This document shows positions 28,626 to 37,077 of a DNA stretch of 64,000 bases, one piece after another; the first letter of the stretch is position 1; each line of letters starts with the position of its first letter. Made by a program: the position numbers and the translations under genes. Origin of the DNA: Salinispirillum sp. LH 10-3-1 (GTDB lineage: Bacteria > Pseudomonadota > Gammaproteobacteria > Pseudomonadales > Natronospirillaceae); the NCBI RefSeq assembly GCF_030643825.1, contig NZ_CP101717.1, positions 372,001 through 436,000 of the forward strand. The letters are read 5' to 3'. Below the pieces are notes generated by a model. The model was not told the DNA's origin and did no database searches. It saw only the letters and a list, made by a program, of their open reading frames with translations.

Positions 28626-29357
28626 ATGCTGCATCTGGATAGGAAACCGGCCACCGCGCCTGCAATCCCTGATTGGGCAGAGCGTTTCTCGGAATTACAC
28701 GACCACACGCACCATGAGCGGGTGCGCGCGTTTTATGGTGCCGGAGTGGTGTCTGGGGATACGCCCTTGGCCGAAGTGCCCTTTGTCGCACTCGACTTTG
28801 AAACGACCGGATTGAATCCCGAGCGTGATGGCATTGTCAGCATCGGCTTGGTGCCTATGACTTTGGCGCGCATTCAATGCAGCGCGGCGCGACATTGGGT
28901 GGTCAACCCGCGCCGTGTACTGCAGGATGAATCGGTGGTAATTCACGGTATTACGCATTCGGATATTGCCGAAGCGCCGGACTTGATGGACATCTTAGAT
29001 GAACTCCTAGCCGCACTCGCCGGACGTATTGTGGTGGTGCACCACCATCGCATCGAACGGCAGTTTCTGGATGCGGCGCTTAAAGTACGCATCAACGAGG
29101 GCATTCAGTTTCCAGTGGTCGATACCATGGAATTGGAAGGGCGTTTGCATCGCCAGCGCCCACCGAGCTTATGGGACAAGCTGTTGCGCCGACCTCCGCC
29201 TTCTATTCGGTTGGCCGACAGTCGGCAACGCTACAATTTGCCTTACTATCAACCGCATCATGCCCTAACCGACGCGCTCGCTAGTGCTGAATTGCTGCAA
29301 GCGCAAATTGCCCACCATTATTCGCCAGACACGCCAATAAAAGCATTGTGGTGCTAA
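28626..29357 (+). CDS. DnaQ-like 3'-5' exonuclease
   Basis: A 243-aa DEDDh exonuclease. Exo I is FVALDFETTGLNPE (Asp 57, Glu 59), Exo II lies in the VVHHHRIERQFLD segment and Exo III is HHALTDALASAELL with the general-base His and final Asp. An ~50-residue N-terminal extension carries no known domain. It starts immediately after the DUF294 protein and is surely co-translated with it. This pairing recurs in gammaproteobacteria, which argues for a common task rather than for replication proofreading. The substrate (DNA, RNA or dinucleotide) is unknown. Confidence 0.9.
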   Translation: MLHLDRKPATAPAIPDWAERFSELHDHTHHERVRAFYGAGVVSGDTPLAEVPFVALDFETTGLNPERDGIVSIGLVPMTLARIQCSAARHWVVNPRRVLQDESVVIHGITHSDIAEAPDLMDILDELLAALAGRIVVVHHHRIERQFLDAALKVRINEGIQFPVVDTMELEGRLHRQRPPSLWDKLLRRPPPSIRLADSRQRYNLPYYQPHHALTDALASAELLQAQIAHHYSPDTPIKALWC

Positions 29358-29629
29358 GGCGCTGTGGACTAAGTCACAGGATGCATCGGTGCTTCCGGGT
29401 GCTTGATGGTGTTCATTGACTGTGTATCAGGATACTACCCATGCAAGCCTAAAATCTAGGTCAGCCCCCGTCGCCAAATTTACAGTTTGTATAAAAAAAC
29501 GGCTGCTCAGGCGTGCCATACTGGTCGCTGTATTCGTTCGTTACGCCTCGTGGCGTATTCATTCTCGCTTCATTCGACGGCTGCCCGACACCGGCTTGTC
29601 TCATGCAGCCAGCAAACAAGGAGACCCCT

Positions 29630-30067
29630 GTGGTCTGGTTTCTGCTACTGCACATAGCGGCGTTGTTAGTCTGGGCCGCGGCCCTGCTTTACCTGCCCAT
29701 TATGATCGGCGCGTCGCCTGAGAGGCCGCCCGATATCGACCAAAAGCCCAAGCCCTACGACTCAGTAGGCAGATTCCTGTTTACGCAAGTGGCAACGCCA
29801 GCGGCACTGGTCGCCATTATCGCCGGGACCGTGGTCTTTTTGCTTAACCGCACGGTCGATACGTGGCTGATCATCAAGTTATCGTTGGTGACAGCGCTGG
29901 TGATGGCACACGCCGTGGCGGGTATTTTGGTACTGCGCGAAGAACGCTTGGGGAAGCAACGCCATATTCGAATTTTGAGTCTGGCTTTGCTGGTGGTGTT
30001 GTGCGTGTTGATGACCGCCATTGTCTGGGTCGTATTGGCTAAACCCGCTATGGAGTGGTTGCCATGA
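29630..30067 (+). CDS. CopD/HemJ-like small membrane protein
   Basis: A 145-aa protein with four membrane helices (about 2-22, 50-70, 77-97 and 115-135). FLLLHIAALLVWAAALLYLP near the start resembles the heme/copper-facing helix of HemJ and CopD-like proteins. The start is GTG 29630, six bases after AAGGAG; a longer frame from 29513 has no RBS and adds unlikely sequence. It lies just before the oxidase operon and converges on the DUF2231 gene, so a role in heme or copper supply for the oxidase is plausible but unproven. Confidence 0.7.
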   Translation: MVWFLLLHIAALLVWAAALLYLPIMIGASPERPPDIDQKPKPYDSVGRFLFTQVATPAALVAIIAGTVVFLLNRTVDTWLIIKLSLVTALVMAHAVAGILVLREERLGKQRHIRILSLALLVVLCVLMTAIVWVVLAKPAMEWLP

Positions 30068-30096
30068 AATACGCCCAGCTCAAGCATCTCGCAGTA

Positions 30097-30597
30097 CTAT
30101 TCCGGCGCGGCCTGCTTGCTGCCCGGCAGACTGGTGATGCGCGCCGCGTCAATGTCGACACCCACGGCGTACTCATAAACCAGCTTGCCGCCCAGAAAAC
30201 CGGTGATGGCGATCAACCCGGCGGTGATCAACGACAGATACAGTCCCATGGGCCACACCGCAGCCGCTGGCTCACTGACCCGCAACAGCCAGTTGAGCGA
30301 TGCGAGCGACAACAGCATGATCGCCAGAATGGCATGGCACCACGCGGTGATCAGTCGACGAATTCGGGGCACAACAAGCAGGTCGATGAGACCAACCGTG
30401 CCGGAAACTGCGCCGCCCAAAGCGCCAATACCGACCAGCCACAGGCTGGCACGGGCCCAGAAAAAATCACCTGTCCACAAGTAGGCCAGGTCCGTACCCA
30501 CCAGACCCAACAAGGCAGCGACCGGAAAATGAATGAGCACCGGATGAATGGGGTGGCCTCTGATGGCCATCCGACTGGCAATGGGTTGTACGGGCAT
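30097..30597 (-). CDS. DUF2231 membrane protein
   Basis: A 166-aa four-helix membrane protein with the family opening GHPIHPVLIHFPVA. The conserved His pair next to the first helix suggests metal or heme contact, and DUF2231 genes are often found with cytochrome oxidase loci. The preferred start is ATG 30597, behind GGAGG; the next ATG, eight codons upstream, has no RBS. It is transcribed opposite to the oxidase operon, with starts about 25 bp apart, so promoters must lie inside neighbouring coding sequence. Confidence 0.82.
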   Translation of the reverse strand: MPVQPIASRMAIRGHPIHPVLIHFPVAALLGLVGTDLAYLWTGDFFWARASLWLVGIGALGGAVSGTVGLIDLLVVPRIRRLITAWCHAILAIMLLSLASLNWLLRVSEPAAAVWPMGLYLSLITAGLIAITGFLGGKLVYEYAVGVDIDAARITSLPGSKQAAPE

Positions 30598-30621
30598 ATT
30601 GCCTCCGTTGGCAGATTTCAA

Positions 30622-31350
30622 TTGACGAGGTTATTCAGGTCATGCCGCACCACACTAGCAGGCATGGGAGCGGTGGTCATTTCTTTACAGTTAACGGCCT
30701 GCAGCGGCCCTTTCTCAGCGTTAGACCCCGCTGGACCTGCGGCGCGTGACGTGGCGGGTCTGTGGTGGGCGATGTTCGGGTTTTCGACGTTGGTGTTGAT
30801 CGCGGTGACGGCGCTATGGATCTATGCCATACGTCGCCCTGCCTCGCATGCGGATGAGCAGTCAGCAAGGGCATTGCAGAACCGCTGGATCATTTGGGGT
30901 GGGCTTGCCTTGCCGCTAGGGAGCATTGCCTTGCTGCTGGCGTTTGGCATTCCCATCGGTCACCGTATGCTGCCCTTACCCTCGGCAGACGGCGACGTAT
31001 TACAGATAGAAGTGACCGGCCATCAATGGCGCTGGGAAGTGCACTACCCGGAACAGGACATTGACCTAGCCAACGAAGTGCACATTCCGGTCAATACGCC
31101 GGTTGATGTCGTGTTGCGCAGTAACGACGTGATTCATTCGTTTTGGGTGCCGCGCCTCGGCGGCAAGATGGACATGATTCCCGGGCGTACTAATGTGCTG
31201 CGTTTGCAGGCTGATGAACCCGGTGAGTATCGGGGCAGTTGTGCCGAGTTTTGTGGCGTGGGTCACGCGCACATGCAATTCACGGTGACCGCACATACCG
31301 AAGAAGACTTCGCTCGTTGGCAGCAACAAGCTCAGGAGAGCGCAGAATGA
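30622..31350 (+). CDS. coxB: Cytochrome c oxidase subunit II
   Basis: Carries the CuA centre that accepts electrons from cytochrome c. The N-terminus has a lipoprotein-type signal ending LTAC, two transmembrane helices, and a periplasmic cupredoxin domain with the full CuA set: a histidine in VIHSFWVP, then CAEFCGVGHAHMQF, giving the two cysteines, His and Met. No cytochrome c domain is fused, so it is an aa3-like rather than caa3 subunit. The start is uncertain: TTG 30622 gives a proper basic signal peptide, and ATG 30664 is the alternative. A longer open frame reaching back to 30055 overlaps the DUF2231 gene and is not real. The stop overlaps coxA as ATGA. Confidence 0.88.
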   Translation: MTRLFRSCRTTLAGMGAVVISLQLTACSGPFSALDPAGPAARDVAGLWWAMFGFSTLVLIAVTALWIYAIRRPASHADEQSARALQNRWIIWGGLALPLGSIALLLAFGIPIGHRMLPLPSADGDVLQIEVTGHQWRWEVHYPEQDIDLANEVHIPVNTPVDVVLRSNDVIHSFWVPRLGGKMDMIPGRTNVLRLQADEPGEYRGSCAEFCGVGHAHMQFTVTAHTEEDFARWQQQAQESAE

Positions 31351-33863
31351 CGGGCACGGTAGAGACGTCTAAATTTGTTCGAGAACTGAACCGGGTATGG
31401 GCGAATTTGCCGGGCTGGGGCAGCTTGTCGGCGGTCAATCACAGTACCATTGGCCTGCGCTTTATGGTCACGGGGATGGTGTTCTTTCTGATCGGCGGCA
31501 TCCTGGCGATGCTGGTGCGCACTCAGTTGGCGTTGCCGGAGCAAGACCTGATCAGTGCCGAACTGTACAACCAAGCCTTCACCATGCACGGCACGGTGAT
31601 GATGTTTCTATTTGCCATTCCGGTGTTGGAAGGCTTGGCGATTTATCTGATTCCGAAGATGATCGGCGCGCGTGATCTGGTGTTCCCGCGCATCAGTGCG
31701 TTGGGTTATTACTGCTATTTGTTCGGCGGCATCATCATACTGTCCAGCCTGTTTCTCGGCATTGCACCGGACTCGGGTTGGTTCATGTACACACCACTGA
31801 GCAGCAGTGTGTTTTCGCCTGGGCCGGGCTCTGATTTCTGGTTGCTCGGCATCACCTTTGTCGAAATCTCCGCTATGGCGGCGGGCATTGAACTCACCGT
31901 GTCCATTTTGCGCACCCGCGCACCTGGCATGACATTGAGCCGGATGCCGATCTTCTGTTGGTACATTTTGGCCATGGCACTGATGATCGTGTTCGGCTTT
32001 CCGCCGTTGATTCTTGCCAGCATTCTGTTGGAACTCGAACGCGCGGCTGGTATGCCGTTCTTCGATGTCGCTGCCGGTGGCGACCCGCTGCTGTGGCAGC
32101 ACCTGTTCTGGCTGTTCGGACACCCGGAGGTCTACATCATCTTCCTGCCTGCGGCGGGTATCGTATCGACGCTGATTCCGGTGTTCTCCGGGCGTCCGCT
32201 GGTGGGTTATCGCTGGATCGTACTGTCGATCATTCTTACTGGCTTCATCAGTTTCGGGCTCTGGGTGCACCACATGTTTACCGTGGGCATTCCGCAGTTG
32301 GCGCAGGCGTTTTTCTCGGTCGCCAGTATGATGGTGGCAGTGCCTACGGCGATTCAGGTGTTCGCGTGGCTGGCGACTTTGTGGATGGGCAAGGTGGTGT
32401 TCCGCTTGCCAATGCTGTGGATCATGGGCTTTTTGGTCATCTTCGTGTGCGGTGGTTTGACTGGCGTGATGTTGGCGTTGGTGCCGTTCAATTGGCAGGT
32501 ACACGATACGCACTTCGTCGTCGCGCACATGCATTATGTGCTGGTCGGTGGCATGTTCTTCCCGTTGATGGCGGGGCTGTATTATTGGCTACCGCTGGTC
32601 TCCGGGCGTATGCTGTCGGAACGCATGGGGCGGTGGGGTTTCTGGCTGACCTTCATCGGGTTTAATACCACCTTCCTGCTGATGCACCTGACCGGTCTGC
32701 TCGGCATGCCGCGCCGGGTCTATACCTATGAAGCGGGCTTGGGCTGGGACTGGCTGAATCTGCTGTCATCCATTGGCGGGTTCATTATGGCGGCCGGTGT
32801 GGCCATGGTGCTGCTGGATCTACTGCTGCACTACCGTTTTGGGCGTAAGGCAACCAGTAATCCTTGGCAGGCGGATACACTGGAATGGGCGCTGGATAAA
32901 CCACCTGCGCCGTACAATTTCGTGTCTTTACCACGCATCCAGTCTCGCAGTCCGCTGTGGGACGATCCGGAACTGGGTGAGCGCTTGCAAGCCGGTGAGG
33001 GCAGCTTAGTCAGTATCGAGCACGGCCGCCGCGAGACCTGGGGCACCGATGCCGTGACCGGTGAACCCAGCGAAATCTGCCATTTGCCGACCAACTCTTG
33101 GTGGCCGTTAATGGCTGCGGGAGCCTTGGCACTGGTGTGTGTCAGTCTTCTCATGCGCTGGTATCCGGTGGCGATTCTGGGCGCTGTATTGGCCGCGTTG
33201 CCGCTGTTTCGCTGGAGCTGGGAAAACGGTGGGCACCCGAGTGCCGCGCCGCTGACCCCGAACGACGTCGAAGACGAGCTGCCGCTGGAATCGAGAACAC
33301 TAGACGGACCGGGACGCTGGGGCATGATCATCACCTTACTGGCCGACGGCGCGCTGTATCTGTCGCTGCTGTTCGGTTGGTTTTACCTGTGGACGGCCGC
33401 ACCGCAATGGTCGGCACCGGATGACGGGCCATTAAGCATTTGGGGCCTGGTACTCAGCGGTGCTTTGCTGACGCTGGCCAGCCTGCGCTTTCGGCAGCAG
33501 GCACGTCGACTGGCACGAGGCGACGAGATTGGCGTGCAGTCGGGGCTTTGGCAAGCCACTGCACTGGGCGCTTTACATGTGCTCTCGTTGATCGCTGTGC
33601 TCTGGGTGGCACCTTTGGCCATTACGGACAACGCTTACGATGCGGTGCTCTTTTTCATGTTGCTGTTTCTGCTGTTTCACAGCGCTCTGGCGGTCATTAT
33701 TACGGCCTTGCAGGCGTGGCGCATAAAGCTTGGTTATGTGAGTGCTCGCTTGCCGTATGAACCACAAGTGGTATGGCCGTTCTGGTTATACACCACCGGT
33801 ATCTTCTGGGTAAGCGTGGCGCTGTTTGTGTTTCTGCCTATGGCGTGGGGCGCCTCGACATGA
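31347..33863 (+). CDS. coxA: Cytochrome c oxidase subunit I-III fusion
   Basis: An 838-aa fused catalytic subunit. Residues ~1-560 are the 12-helix heme-copper core: heme-a ligand His 81 (TMHGTVMMF), CuB His 259 with Tyr 263 (FGHPEVYI), His 308/309 (WVHHMF), and His 394/396 (VVAHMHYV). Residues ~650-838 form a subunit III-like helical bundle that starts around residue 655 and ends near VFLPMAWG. It reduces O2 to water at the inner membrane. The usual K-channel lysine in PTGxKxFxW is Gln here (PTAIQVFAW), and the NN pair of the D-channel loop is absent, while the entry Asp in IGARDLVFPR is kept. ATG 31347 overlaps coxB and is preceded by GGAG. Confidence 0.93.
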   Translation: MTGTVETSKFVRELNRVWANLPGWGSLSAVNHSTIGLRFMVTGMVFFLIGGILAMLVRTQLALPEQDLISAELYNQAFTMHGTVMMFLFAIPVLEGLAIYLIPKMIGARDLVFPRISALGYYCYLFGGIIILSSLFLGIAPDSGWFMYTPLSSSVFSPGPGSDFWLLGITFVEISAMAAGIELTVSILRTRAPGMTLSRMPIFCWYILAMALMIVFGFPPLILASILLELERAAGMPFFDVAAGGDPLLWQHLFWLFGHPEVYIIFLPAAGIVSTLIPVFSGRPLVGYRWIVLSIILTGFISFGLWVHHMFTVGIPQLAQAFFSVASMMVAVPTAIQVFAWLATLWMGKVVFRLPMLWIMGFLVIFVCGGLTGVMLALVPFNWQVHDTHFVVAHMHYVLVGGMFFPLMAGLYYWLPLVSGRMLSERMGRWGFWLTFIGFNTTFLLMHLTGLLGMPRRVYTYEAGLGWDWLNLLSSIGGFIMAAGVAMVLLDLLLHYRFGRKATSNPWQADTLEWALDKPPAPYNFVSLPRIQSRSPLWDDPELGERLQAGEGSLVSIEHGRRETWGTDAVTGEPSEICHLPTNSWWPLMAAGALALVCVSLLMRWYPVAILGAVLAALPLFRWSWENGGHPSAAPLTPNDVEDELPLESRTLDGPGRWGMIITLLADGALYLSLLFGWFYLWTAAPQWSAPDDGPLSIWGLVLSGALLTLASLRFRQQARRLARGDEIGVQSGLWQATALGALHVLSLIAVLWVAPLAITDNAYDAVLFFMLLFLLFHSALAVIITALQAWRIKLGYVSARLPYEPQVVWPFWLYTTGIFWVSVALFVFLPMAWGAST

Positions 33864-34243
33864 AACAGTTCCTTATGAAACAGACCTTTATGAAGCTGTC
33901 GACCGGCCACCCGGCGCAACTGGTGATCGGGCTGACGGTCTGGTGTGTATGGTTTGTTGCGGTCTATGGTGGGCTATCCGTGGCTTGCGAGCTGGCGGCG
34001 CCTGAGCCGAACCGGGGCGCGTTCAATACCATCAGTTTGACGCTGATCGTGCTCACTGTGCTTACCGTCCTATGGCTGGCGTGGGGCGCCTGGACGTGCT
34101 GGCAAAGCACCACGGACGAGGTCGACTCTACCGAACGACAAACCCCATTCATTGCCCGTGTTTCGGCAGGTTTATACGCCGTTGCTGCCCTCGCTGCGCT
34201 CATCGTTGTTTGGCCATTGCTCATGCTGCCGCCATGCCTTTAG
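33860..34243 (+). CDS. Small oxidase-operon membrane protein
   Basis: A 127-aa protein with about three hydrophobic helices (residues ~20-42, 56-78 and 100-122). The ATG overlaps the coxA-C stop as ATGA, and its end overlaps ctaG by 10 nt, so it is co-translated with the oxidase. I do not recognise a family; position and size suggest an accessory subunit (a subunit IV equivalent) or an assembly helper. Two further in-frame ATG codons follow within ten residues. Confidence 0.75.
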   Translation: MKQFLMKQTFMKLSTGHPAQLVIGLTVWCVWFVAVYGGLSVACELAAPEPNRGAFNTISLTLIVLTVLTVLWLAWGAWTCWQSTTDEVDSTERQTPFIARVSAGLYAVAALAALIVVWPLLMLPPCL

Positions 34244-35097
34244 GGTCGCCGTCCGGTCAGTCTATGGTTGGCATAGTGGCCTTGATGGCTGTCCTCTGGT
34301 GCTTGCCCGTTACGGCGTGGGCGCATGACCCCATTACCAGCGAGGGCGCGGCACGCTGGGTCGGCGTTGTGAATGTGCTGTGGCTGGGTGCCTTGTGGGT
34401 GTTTTATATCGTCGGGCAGCGTCGTCATGCACCGCCAGTGTGGCGCGCCGTGTTGTTTCACTTCACGTGCGCGCTCGCGCTGATCACGCTCATGGGGCCA
34501 TTGGATGGCTGGGCGGAAACCAGCACCGCGGCTCACATGGTGCAACACATGTTGGTCATGGTGGTGATCGGGCCGTTATGGGTGCTGTCTCGACCCTTTC
34601 CACAATGGTTCCATGCGGGCTTGAAGAATAAAGCCGGTTGGCACCGCGTGACCCGAATCAGCCAGTACCCAATGACCATGGCGTATTTGCACGCCGCCGC
34701 TATTTGGTTTTGGCACTTACCCAAACCCTACATGCTGGCGGTCGAGCAGCCGTGGTGGCACTGGGTAGAGCATCTGTGTTTTTTACTGACGGCGGTGGGG
34801 TTTTGGTGGGCCGTGCTGCTCGGCGGGCGGCGCAACCGACCTTTGGCGTTGCTCGCGGTGCTGTTTACCCTGATGCACACCGGCTTTCTCGGTGCCGTGC
34901 TCACCTTCGCCAATGACGTGCTCTATGGTGAGGCGCGCAGCATTCAAGACCAGCAGTTAGCAGGCCTGATCATGTGGGTTGGCGGTGGCATTCCCTATTT
35001 GATCGCCGCAGGCTGGATAGGCCACCAGTGGTTGCGCGACCTTGAACGCCGGATGCAGCGAATCAAGGTCGCGAACGGGCCACTAAGAACTCGCTAG
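34234..35097 (+). CDS. ctaG: Cytochrome c oxidase assembly protein CtaG (caa3 type)
   Basis: A multispanning membrane protein of the CtaG_caa3 family (about 287 aa) that helps insert copper into the oxidase. It has a cleavable-looking first helix ending AWAHD, then about six helices. The histidine- and Met-containing block [21 protein letters not shown] and [18 protein letters not shown] are typical of the family. ATG 34234 is taken; ATG 34264 is possible. This version replaces the Cox11-type copper chaperone. It overlaps the convergent aguA by 15 bp. Confidence 0.88.
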
Positions 35098-36192
35098 AGG
35101 CTGCTGCTGGGTGATGCAGTGAATGTTGCCGCCGCCCAGCAGGATCTCCCGACCTGGCACTTGCACGATTTCATGGTCTGGTAGCAGCTCACGCAACAAC
35201 TGCGCGGCCACTTCGTCCATGGGGTCGTCGAACTTAGGCATGATGACGCCGCCGTTCACAAACAAGAAATTGATGTAGCTGCCAGCCAGTCGCTGCCCGG
35301 CGCTGCGCGCCATGCCGTCGGCGACCGGATCAACACCTAAGGCTTCTTCTGCGGTAATGAACAGCGGACCGGGTACGGGGATTTTGTGTACTTTCAGAGC
35401 GCGGCCTTGGGCGTCGGTCTGGTTGATCAGGTGGTCGTAAGCCGCTTTGGAGCGCGCGTATTGTGGGTCTTGCTCGTCGTCCGTCCACGCTAAGGCGATC
35501 TCACCGGGGCGAATAAAGCAGGCCACGTTGTCGATGTGGTCGTTGGTCTCGTCTTCGTAGATGCCTTCGGCAATCCACAGGACTTTTTCCACGTTTAGAT
35601 AGTCGCACAGGCGTTGTTCGATATCCGTGCGTGACAAATCCGGGTTGCGGTTGGGGTGTAACAAACAGGCTTCGGTGACCAGTACCGTGCCTTCGCCATC
35701 CACATGAATGGAACCGCCTTCTAGGATGAAATCGGTGCGGTAACGGTCTTTGCCTTCCATTTGCAGCACTTTGCGCGCCACTTGGTCGTCGCGGTCCCAC
35801 GGAAAATAGAGCCCGCTGTGCAAACCACCCCACGCATTGAACACCCAGTCTACACCGCGCAACTCACCAGCTGCGTTGCGTACAAAGGTCGGCCCAACGT
35901 CACGCATCCACGCGTCGTTGCTGCTGATTTCAAGTACGCGAATGCCTTCATCGGCGGCGAATTGCAAACAAGCGTTCTCATATTGCGCCGCCGATACCCC
36001 AATCGAAACGGGCTGAAAACGGGCAATGGCACGTGCTACATCTACAAAGGTCTGCTGCGCGGGCTTGGCACCCAACCGCCAGTTGTCAGGGCGCTCCGGC
36101 CACAACATCCAAGTTTGCTGTTGCGGCGCCCACTCGGCTGGCATCGTAAAACCGTCAGCACGCGGTGTAGTAGTTAGGGTCCGGCTGGTCAT
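35083..36192 (-). CDS. aguA: Agmatine deiminase
   Basis: Converts agmatine to N-carbamoylputrescine and ammonia. The 369-aa protein is of the guanidino-modifying pentein family: the substrate-binding [12 protein letters not shown], the [12 protein letters not shown] block, the TNDHIDN catalytic His/Asp segment, and the nucleophilic Cys near the C-terminus in [11 protein letters not shown]. All are intact. aguB lies 12 bp upstream in the same direction, so the pair forms an operon that feeds putrescine into the spu cluster further right. Confidence 0.97.
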
Positions 36193-36204
36193 CGAAGACT
36201 CCGC

Positions 36205-37077
36205 TTAAAAGGTTTTACCGTCTTTGGTGAGTATTGCGTCATAGAGATCCGGACGGCGGTCACGGAAGACACCCCAGCTGTGGCGTTTAGTTGCCAGTGC
36301 TTCGAGATCAAAAGTATGCACCAACACGCCTTCTTCAGTGCGGTTCAGTTCTTTCACTTTAGTGCCCGACTCATCAGCGATGAAAGACGAGCCGTAGAAG
36401 GTTTGTGATTGCTCACCTTCGTATTCGGTGCCAATGCGGTTACTGACGATCACCGGCATCAAGTTGGCCGCCGCGTGGCCACACTGGGTGTTTTGCCAAT
36501 GCGCAGCGGAATCCAATGAGCTGTCGTGCGGTTCGCTGCCAATGGCGGTTGGGTAGAACAGCAGTTCAGCGCCCATGAGTGCCATGCAACGTGCGGTTTC
36601 AGGGAACCACTGATCCCAGCAAATGCCAACGCCGATTTTGGCGTACGCGGTATCCCATACTTGGAAACCAGTGTCGCCAGGAGTGAAATAGAATTTTTCG
36701 GAATAGCCGGGGCCATCTGGAATGTGCGTCTTCCGGTAAATACCCATGACGGAGCCATCGGCGTCGATCATAACAACGGTGTTGTAATAGGCGTTATTGG
36801 CGCGCTCGTAAATGCTGATGGGCAACACGACCTTCAGTTCAGCCGCGACTTTGGCAAAATGCAGTACGGCGGGGTTTTCTTCCACGGGTGTGGCGAATGC
36901 GAGGTACTCGTATTTCTGCTTTTGGCAGAAATAGCAGCGTTCAAACAGCTCTTGCAGCAAAATGATTTGCGCCCCTTGGGCGTGTGCTTCGCGGACTTTC
37001 ACTTCAGCGTTACGGATGTTTTCGTCGACATCCCAGCCGCAAGCCATTTGGGTGGCGGCTACGGTTACGTTTCTCAT
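36205..37077 (-). CDS. aguB: N-carbamoylputrescine amidase
   Basis: Hydrolyses N-carbamoylputrescine to putrescine, CO2 and ammonia. The 290-aa nitrilase-superfamily protein has the Glu-Lys-Cys triad: Glu in LLQELFERCYF (residue ~43), Lys in YRKTHIPDGPGYSEK (residue ~118), and Cys in GVGICWDQWFPE (residue ~155). YSEKFYFTPGDTGF is typical of the plant/bacterial AguB group. It is first in the aguB-aguA pair. The upstream spacer contains two large palindromic repeats. Confidence 0.97.
   Translation of the reverse strand: MRNVTVAATQMACGWDVDENIRNAEVKVREAHAQGAQIILLQELFERCYFCQKQKYEYLAFATPVEENPAVLHFAKVAAELKVVLPISIYERANNAYYNTVVMIDADGSVMGIYRKTHIPDGPGYSEKFYFTPGDTGFQVWDTAYAKIGVGICWDQWFPETARCMALMGAELLFYPTAIGSEPHDSSLDSAAHWQNTQCGHAAANLMPVIVSNRIGTEYEGEQSQTFYGSSFIADESGTKVKELNRTEEGVLVHTFDLEALATKRHSWGVFRDRRPDLYDAILTKDGKTF

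Follow-up and report, generated by a model that had tools for sequence, protein, structure and literature searches.

A fused oxidase of the heme-copper family

The window analyzed here, a 64,000-nucleotide stretch of Salinispirillum sp. LH 10-3-1 (contig NZ_CP101717.1, positions 372,001 to 436,000), encodes a CoxA-CoxC fusion that is the catalytic subunit of a cytochrome c oxidase, with the gene for CoxB directly upstream. An earlier note on this DNA had called the fusion deficient in proton-channel residues; we find that its K-channel lysine is replaced by a glutamine conserved across a broad proteobacterial clade and that its D-channel is remodeled. Residues below follow Rhodobacter sphaeroides numbering (Rs), by alignment to the Rs chain, except where fusion residues are named; loci and genomes carry our own L and G numbers, and published accounts are cited by PMC identifier. 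The main features, with channel residues of the fusion placed by alignment, are as follows.

30622..31350, plus strand: CoxB (subunit II), with the CuA motif present and a second transmembrane helix without the Glu of the K-channel entrance (II-E101); start codon uncertain
31347..33863, plus strand: CoxA-CoxC fusion (subunits I and III), catalytic subunit, from an 838-amino-acid open reading frame, profile matches, an AlphaFold2 model and Foldseek
31629..31631, plus strand: Glu95, clade-specific carboxylate near Rs 117 (placed within one residue)
31641..31643, plus strand: Ile99, at Rs N121 (Asn gate)
31674..31676, plus strand: Asp110, equal to Rs D132, D-channel entrance, retained
31695..31697, plus strand: Ser117, at Rs N139 (Asn gate)
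31863..31865, plus strand: Glu173, at Rs G198, clade-specific carboxylate
31890..31892, plus strand: Glu182, at Rs N207, clade-specific carboxylate
32127..32129, plus strand: Glu261, equal to Rs E286, retained
32169..32171, plus strand: Thr275, at the K-channel entrance residue Rs H300
32355..32357, plus strand: codon of Gln337, at the K-channel lysine Rs K362

The fusion scores 727 bits against the TIGR02891 profile (CtaD_CoxA; cut-off, 671) and matches PF00115 over residues 35 to 480, and a Pfam search of its CoxC half, the C-terminal third, returned no match. With its AlphaFold2 model (mean predicted local distance difference test score [pLDDT], 80.3; predicted template modeling score [pTM], 0.87), the best structural match in Foldseek is 2yev_A, the subunit I+III fusion of Thermus thermophilus caa3 oxidase, which aligns over 819 columns and nearly the whole chain (TMq, 0.83; 32% identity). 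The C-terminal third is assigned to subunit III through this structural match and not through Pfam. Unlike our fusion, the Thermus enzyme has a canonical K-channel and lacks an equivalent of Glu286. The profile score, six histidine ligands and the tyrosine of the HPEVY motif place the protein in family A (CtaD/CoxA), and the clustering of a COX1-COX3 fusion with CoxB matches COX operon type a. The fusion supplies subunits I and III of a cytochrome c oxidase, very probably of the heme-A type, that belongs to a separate branch of family A, here called the Gln branch.

Active site and K-channel

All metal-ligand histidines are kept in the fusion (Rs 102, 284, 333, 334, 419, and 421), as is Tyr288, in agreement with the earlier note's statement that every heme and CuB ligand is present; the 481/482 Arg pair is kept as well. 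The K-channel lysine, K362, is replaced by Gln337, as the note had read from the letters. To place this substitution we took the nearest loci (63 to 89% identity; the best 80 of 593 relatives), retrieved with peptides that exclude site 362, and all 80 have Gln there, which rules out chance or sequencing error as its source. Further comparisons use 108 Gln rows (these 80 loci, 19 rows found by a Gln sequence pattern, 8 plasmid rows, and the window; 102 are distinct over the last 300 residues, and L002 was dropped as the same gene as the window's) against 39 Lys rows. The Gln rows are defined by Gln362, and glutamine at that site is therefore theirs by construction.

The replacement extends to the channel entrance. 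Residue 300 is Thr in 104 of the 108 Gln rows, against H, E, Q, or D in 37 of the 39 Lys rows. The second transmembrane helix of the window's CoxB contains no acidic residue and thus lacks the entrance Glu of family A (II-E101), and in the 103 subunit II sequences located for the 108 Gln rows (all but those of L030, L138, L143, L144, and L160) the core of this helix is always free of acidic residues; the subunit II sequences of L001, L003, and L168 have an LE-type Glu there. Three of the four type A1 K-channel residues listed by Sousa are present in the fusion (Thr351, Ser291, and Tyr280 in Paracoccus denitrificans numbering), and the fourth, Lys354, is Gln, which sets the fusion outside the type A1 K-channel. 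The earlier note had raised a compensating lysine at a neighboring position; within Rs 280 to 300 and 345 to 380, no neighboring position is enriched in Lys or Arg, and the clade-conserved basic residue closest to the site is an R or K at Rs374, twelve residues past 362, in 105 of 108 Gln rows (Ser in 30 of the 39 Lys rows). In this branch, then, a conserved Gln stands in for the K-channel lysine, subunit II has lost its entrance Glu, and position 300 no longer carries its usual residue.

D-channel remodeling

The note had also described the fusion as lacking canonical D-channel residues, a claim that holds for the Asn gate and fails for two carboxylates of the pathway: the Asn pair after FPR, N139-N140, is indeed S117-A118, and D132 and E286 remain as Asp110 and Glu261. 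The channel is remodeled, not lost. Across the branch the three gate asparagines are mostly replaced by I, V, M, or L (N121), by S or T (N139), and by E (N207): position 121 is I, V, M, or L in 108 of 108 Gln rows and N in 39 of 39 Lys rows, and position 139 is Ser or Thr in 100 of 108. Glutamates at 117, 198, and 207 occur in 106, 107, and 106 of the 108 Gln rows, respectively, and in none of the 39 Lys rows. Only Asp124 and Glu278 are kept from the eight type A1 D-channel residues of Sousa (Asp124, Asn199, Asn113, Asn131, Tyr35, Ser134, Ser193, and Glu278), and the fusion falls outside that channel type; Tyr35 of helix I is Phe, placed by the NHxxxG motif. It is not of type A2 either, in which the Tyr of a YS motif replaces Glu278 (E286), since its motif reads WLFGHPEVY with the Glu present.

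Five rows (L163, L164, L173, L205, and L206) carry D132 replaced by Asn. All five keep N139 and E198, and four keep both E117 and E207, which L173 lacks. L163 and L173 have a separately annotated subunit 3.

Occurrence across Pseudomonadota

An unselected survey with TIGR02891 of 120 Pseudomonadota genomes gave 127 matches, of which 124 were aligned (omitted were two canonical genes of our own genome that were already included and one fragment, in G117). Residue 362 is Lys in 86, Leu or Met in 29, Val in one poor match (L297), and Gln in seven genes, six of them complete and one split in two (L295 and L296). Excluding L295, L296, and L297, glutamates at 117, 198, and 207 occur together in all six complete Gln genes and in none of the 115 Lys, Leu, or Met genes, which indicates that the added glutamates track the Gln branch and not lysine loss as such. 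The six have a hydrophobic residue at 121 (6/6), Glu at 207 (6/6), and Ser at 139 in four and Asn in two; the 115 others have Asn at 121, 139, and 207 without exception. The 29 Leu/Met genes (L266 to L294; 29/124) form a second group without the K-channel lysine, of type A2, with Val or Phe at 359; all have the YS motif, Ala at 286, and an intact Asn triad. In each of the seven Gln-type survey genomes (G000, G023, G050, G051, G071, G091, and G095) a strict Lys pattern was also matched.

At the DNA level, the pattern PT[AG]xQxFxW matched in 20 of 398 Pseudomonadota genomes, against a single match, in a different genome (G304), for the reversed pattern; the corresponding Lys pattern matched in 67 of 150. 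Both patterns are strict, and these genome counts are lower bounds. GHPEVY or GHPDVY is present in 19 of the 20 frames that match the Gln pattern; the remaining frame (L102) belongs to a gene that is split in G050. That gene (G050 C1:2868419-2869932) is broken into two overlapping frames, and the Gln-type gene of Nitrincola sp. A-D6 (L028) has three in-frame stops.

The phylogeny that the earlier note had called for bears out a separate lineage. In a maximum-likelihood tree of 73 rows (thinned at 88% identity, fragments L111 and L152 excluded), the 42 Gln rows form one clade with support of 100/99; the rows were picked partly by Gln or Lys pattern, and the tree is no estimate of frequencies. 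Residue 362 needs at least three changes on this tree and two on a quick tree from which the five longest rows were removed. A plasmid enzyme of Burkholderia multivorans (L165) adjoins the Gln clade (100/99); its long subunit I carries Ala362 and Trp286 (AHPWVY), and so neither the K-channel lysine nor the D-channel glutamate. The conserved residues of the branch occur in named alpha-, beta-, and gammaproteobacteria, in open frames and within a conserved gene cluster. Replacement of the K-channel lysine is thus a trait of a broad clade and not peculiar to the Salinispirillum genome.

Gene neighborhood, assembly genes, and co-occurring oxidases

Four further genes lie next to coxB and the fusion.

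29603..30067, plus strand: UPF0093/CopD-family membrane protein, conserved neighbor; start estimated by eye
30097..30597, minus strand: DUF2231 membrane protein, conserved neighbor on the opposite strand; start estimated by eye
33860..34243, plus strand: small membrane protein, overlapping the stop of the fusion; COX4-like by position only, with no family match
34240..35097, plus strand: Caa3_CtaG assembly factor, the sole match in the genome

Gene ends overlap between coxB and the fusion, between the fusion and the small membrane protein gene, and between the latter and Caa3_CtaG. Among 70 full-length close loci, CoxB is a neighbor in 70, the small protein in 69, CopD and DUF2231 in 68 each, and CtaG in 39; CtaG is therefore not a fixed partner of the Gln-type oxidase. 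The DUF2231 gene is on the opposite strand in the window and in both annotated records examined. Within window positions 29300 to 35300 we counted 16 terminator-like sites, many of them intragenic, against 6.9 (standard deviation, 2.5) in shuffled sequences; a promoter scan of the operon gave one promoter-like site against 2.7 in shuffles, and a repeat search of the operon gave nothing useful. Downstream on the minus strand (35083-37077) are genes that resemble, by eye and from the open reading frame list only, agmatine deiminase and N-carbamoylputrescine amidase.

The earlier note had remarked that CtaG is the only assembly gene here, with CtaA, CtaB, and Cox11 missing. This is true of the window and misleading for the genome. 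CtaA and Cox11 have one match each, outside the window at about 3.44 Mb beside the canonical aa3 genes, in the company of a UbiA-family (CtaB-like) gene and Surf1; the UbiA/CtaB family has two matches in all, both outside the window, and the only Caa3_CtaG of the genome adjoins the fusion. PF00115 matches four proteins of this genome: the fusion, the canonical aa3 subunit with its K-channel Lys (L001), a Lys-type enzyme that is the third family A oxidase (L003), and a protein resembling CcoN (L004; named by eye). The CoxB of L003 (3043-4377) bears two heme c motifs of the CxxCH type.

Co-occurrence with a further oxidase is common in the branch. Another TIGR02891 match is present in 31 of the 32 Gln-type genomes examined (32 of 80), a count that takes extra matches whatever their residue 362; some of these matches are weak (579 to 586 bits in G423 and G428) or broken or partial (G412 and G420). 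The thirty-second genome is the draft of Thioalkalivibrio thiocyanoxidans ARh2. There CtaG, CtaA, and a UbiA-family gene lie in the Gln-type cluster, and Cox11 has no match in the draft genome, a gene set that suggests, without proving it, that Gln-type oxidases contain heme A and have Caa3_CtaG as their assembly factor. Between CtaG and CtaA at this locus (L022, 9025-9765) is a frame that has only the COX2 transmembrane domain, with the canonical VEIVW motif; it appears to be what is left of a canonical oxidase since lost.

Proton uptake and pumping

Proton routing should differ from that of A1-type oxidases, as the earlier note proposed, given the conserved loss of the K-channel lysine, which is accompanied by loss of the entrance Glu in subunit II and by a changed residue 300. 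Its further suggestion, that pumping may be altered, gains support as a possibility from the same conserved loss. To relate these residues to published mutants, we take bovine N98 to be Rs N139 and bovine N80 to be Rs N121. In canonical enzymes the reductive phase depends on the K pathway, and heme a3 is no longer reduced once its lysine is changed (K319M in bovine numbering; PMC12901375). Bovine N98D, N98T, and N98S enzymes keep O2 reduction and lose pumping (PMC12901375), and in simulations N98T and N98S lower the barrier of the Asn gate against back-flow (PMC10194837).

We propose that in the Gln branch the K pathway would no longer deliver protons and that all substrate protons, including those of the reductive phase, would enter by the glutamate-lined D route to E286. 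Pumping would be weak or absent, because these oxidases lack the Asn gate that holds pumped protons back and because canonical enzymes become decoupled when residue 139 is Ser or Thr. The oxidase may then reduce oxygen to water with few or no protons pumped and could act as an extra electron sink where a Lys-type oxidase co-occurs. We hold this proposal, taken whole, to have an even chance of being correct. Uptake by a single D route appears better supported than weak pumping, which would be a transfer from mutants of other enzymes, and the weak-pumping part does not extend to the rows that retain N139. A stricter version, a natural family A branch with a single glutamate-lined uptake channel for all substrate protons and no pumping, in which charge separation is the only energy conservation, seems to us rather doubtful. 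In a bolder form, the glutamate ladder may carry Na+ in salt- or alkali-loving members (a habit judged from organism names). Thioalkalivibrio versutus offers no direct support for Na+ pumping here, its demonstrated Na+ oxidase being a cbb3 enzyme (PMC8874543).

Several observations weigh against uptake by the D route alone with weak pumping. N139 is retained in the five D132-to-Asn rows, which include two of the six complete Gln genes of the survey; decoupling at N139 was measured in other enzymes, and a different gate may exist in the Gln branch. All the co-occurring channel changes trace to one branch, so that our counts are not independent events. The draft genome of T. thiocyanoxidans has no TIGR02891 match besides the Gln-type gene, which therefore need not be auxiliary. 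The remaining points concern the K pathway itself: Gln at 362 shows no drift, which implies that the site still matters, other residues of the pathway are retained (Thr359 in 103, Ser299 in 107, and Tyr288 in 107 of 108 Gln rows), and an acidic residue lies at most 12 residues ahead of the second transmembrane helix of subunit II in 48 of 103 sequences, a possible substitute mouth.

These last points make up most of the case for the main rival, in which the K pathway works without its lysine, Gln337, Thr334, Ser274, Tyr263, and bound water conducting the protons. The mouth of such a route could be the basic residue at Rs374, which sets Gln rows apart from Lys rows, or the acidic residue ahead of the subunit II helix, and families B and C have alternative K-channels without Lys (PMC3084760). 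Yet the known entrance positions, the subunit II Glu and residue 300, are altered, K319M stops heme a3 reduction in canonical enzymes (PMC12901375), and a lysine-free K route leaves the new carboxylates of the D route unexplained. We consider it unlikely, if worth taking seriously.

Normal pumping is less probable still. Here the D-route glutamates would form another effective gate, or the H pathway would serve, and loss of the Asn gate would cost no energy. E286 and the 481/482 Arg pair are kept, proponents of the H pathway hold that the path of pumped protons is conserved in all three families (PMC12901375), and the T. thiocyanoxidans draft has no other family A match; against this, Ser or Thr at 139 is the very change that decouples canonical enzymes (PMC12901375). 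Neutral drift of a redundant paralogue, with channel changes that mean nothing for function, would fit the additional TIGR02891 match in 31 of 32 genomes and the few broken copies (Nitrincola L028 and G050), but it would not preserve Gln, E198, and E207, nor keep the same residues in open frames and a conserved cluster across named alpha-, beta-, and gammaproteobacteria, and we regard it as highly improbable.

How substrate and pumped protons are divided between the D- and K-channels, and whether pumping requires an Asn gate, are questions debated mostly on the basis of point mutants. The Gln-type enzyme, a natural oxidase that retains neither the K-channel lysine nor the Asn gate and is nonetheless conserved in several proteobacterial classes, lends itself to testing both ideas. 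If any ctaD is annotated as a full proton pump, energy yields may be overstated for many soil, marine, and soda-lake bacteria.

Comparison with known oxidases

The gene cluster itself is known. COX operon types a and a-II of proteobacteria have the same COX1-3 fusion and CoxB with further subunit or assembly genes (Degli Esposti 2014; PMC4013037), as in the window and the Gln branch, where CoxB, the fusion, the small protein, and often Caa3_CtaG cluster; by our own assignment, the Rhizobium and Mesorhizobium members with a separately annotated subunit 3 resemble type a-II. The accessible text of the type a account makes no mention of K-channel lysine loss or of D-channel glutamates (PMC4013037). 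K-channel variants elsewhere in family A have already been discussed (PMC8239418), and K-channel loss as such is therefore not new. The channel remodeling of the Gln branch is apparently undescribed in the literature we searched, which key subscription reviews lay beyond. The coxMNOP ccaa3 oxidase of Pseudomonas pseudoalcaligenes KF707 was considered as a characterized relative and rejected, since its subunit I, at 66 kDa, falls short of the size of the fusion.

With the type A1 oxidases, the aa3 enzymes of P. denitrificans and R. sphaeroides (residues per PMC3084760), the fusion shares its fold, heme and CuB ligands, cross-link Tyr, D132, and E286, but it lacks K362, N121, N139, N207, S142, S201, and the helix I Tyr (Phe). 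The Leu/Met362 A2-type oxidases of our survey are likewise without the K-channel lysine, but their Asn triad is intact and they combine the YS motif with Ala286. Closest at the gate are the decoupled N139D, N139T, and N139S mutants of canonical aa3 oxidase (PMC12901375 and PMC10194837), which have the same residue type there, whereas the change in the Gln branch is natural, comes with further changes, and occurs without the K-channel lysine. If the branch does not pump, evolution has fixed the same kind of Asn-gate change that decouples these laboratory mutants.

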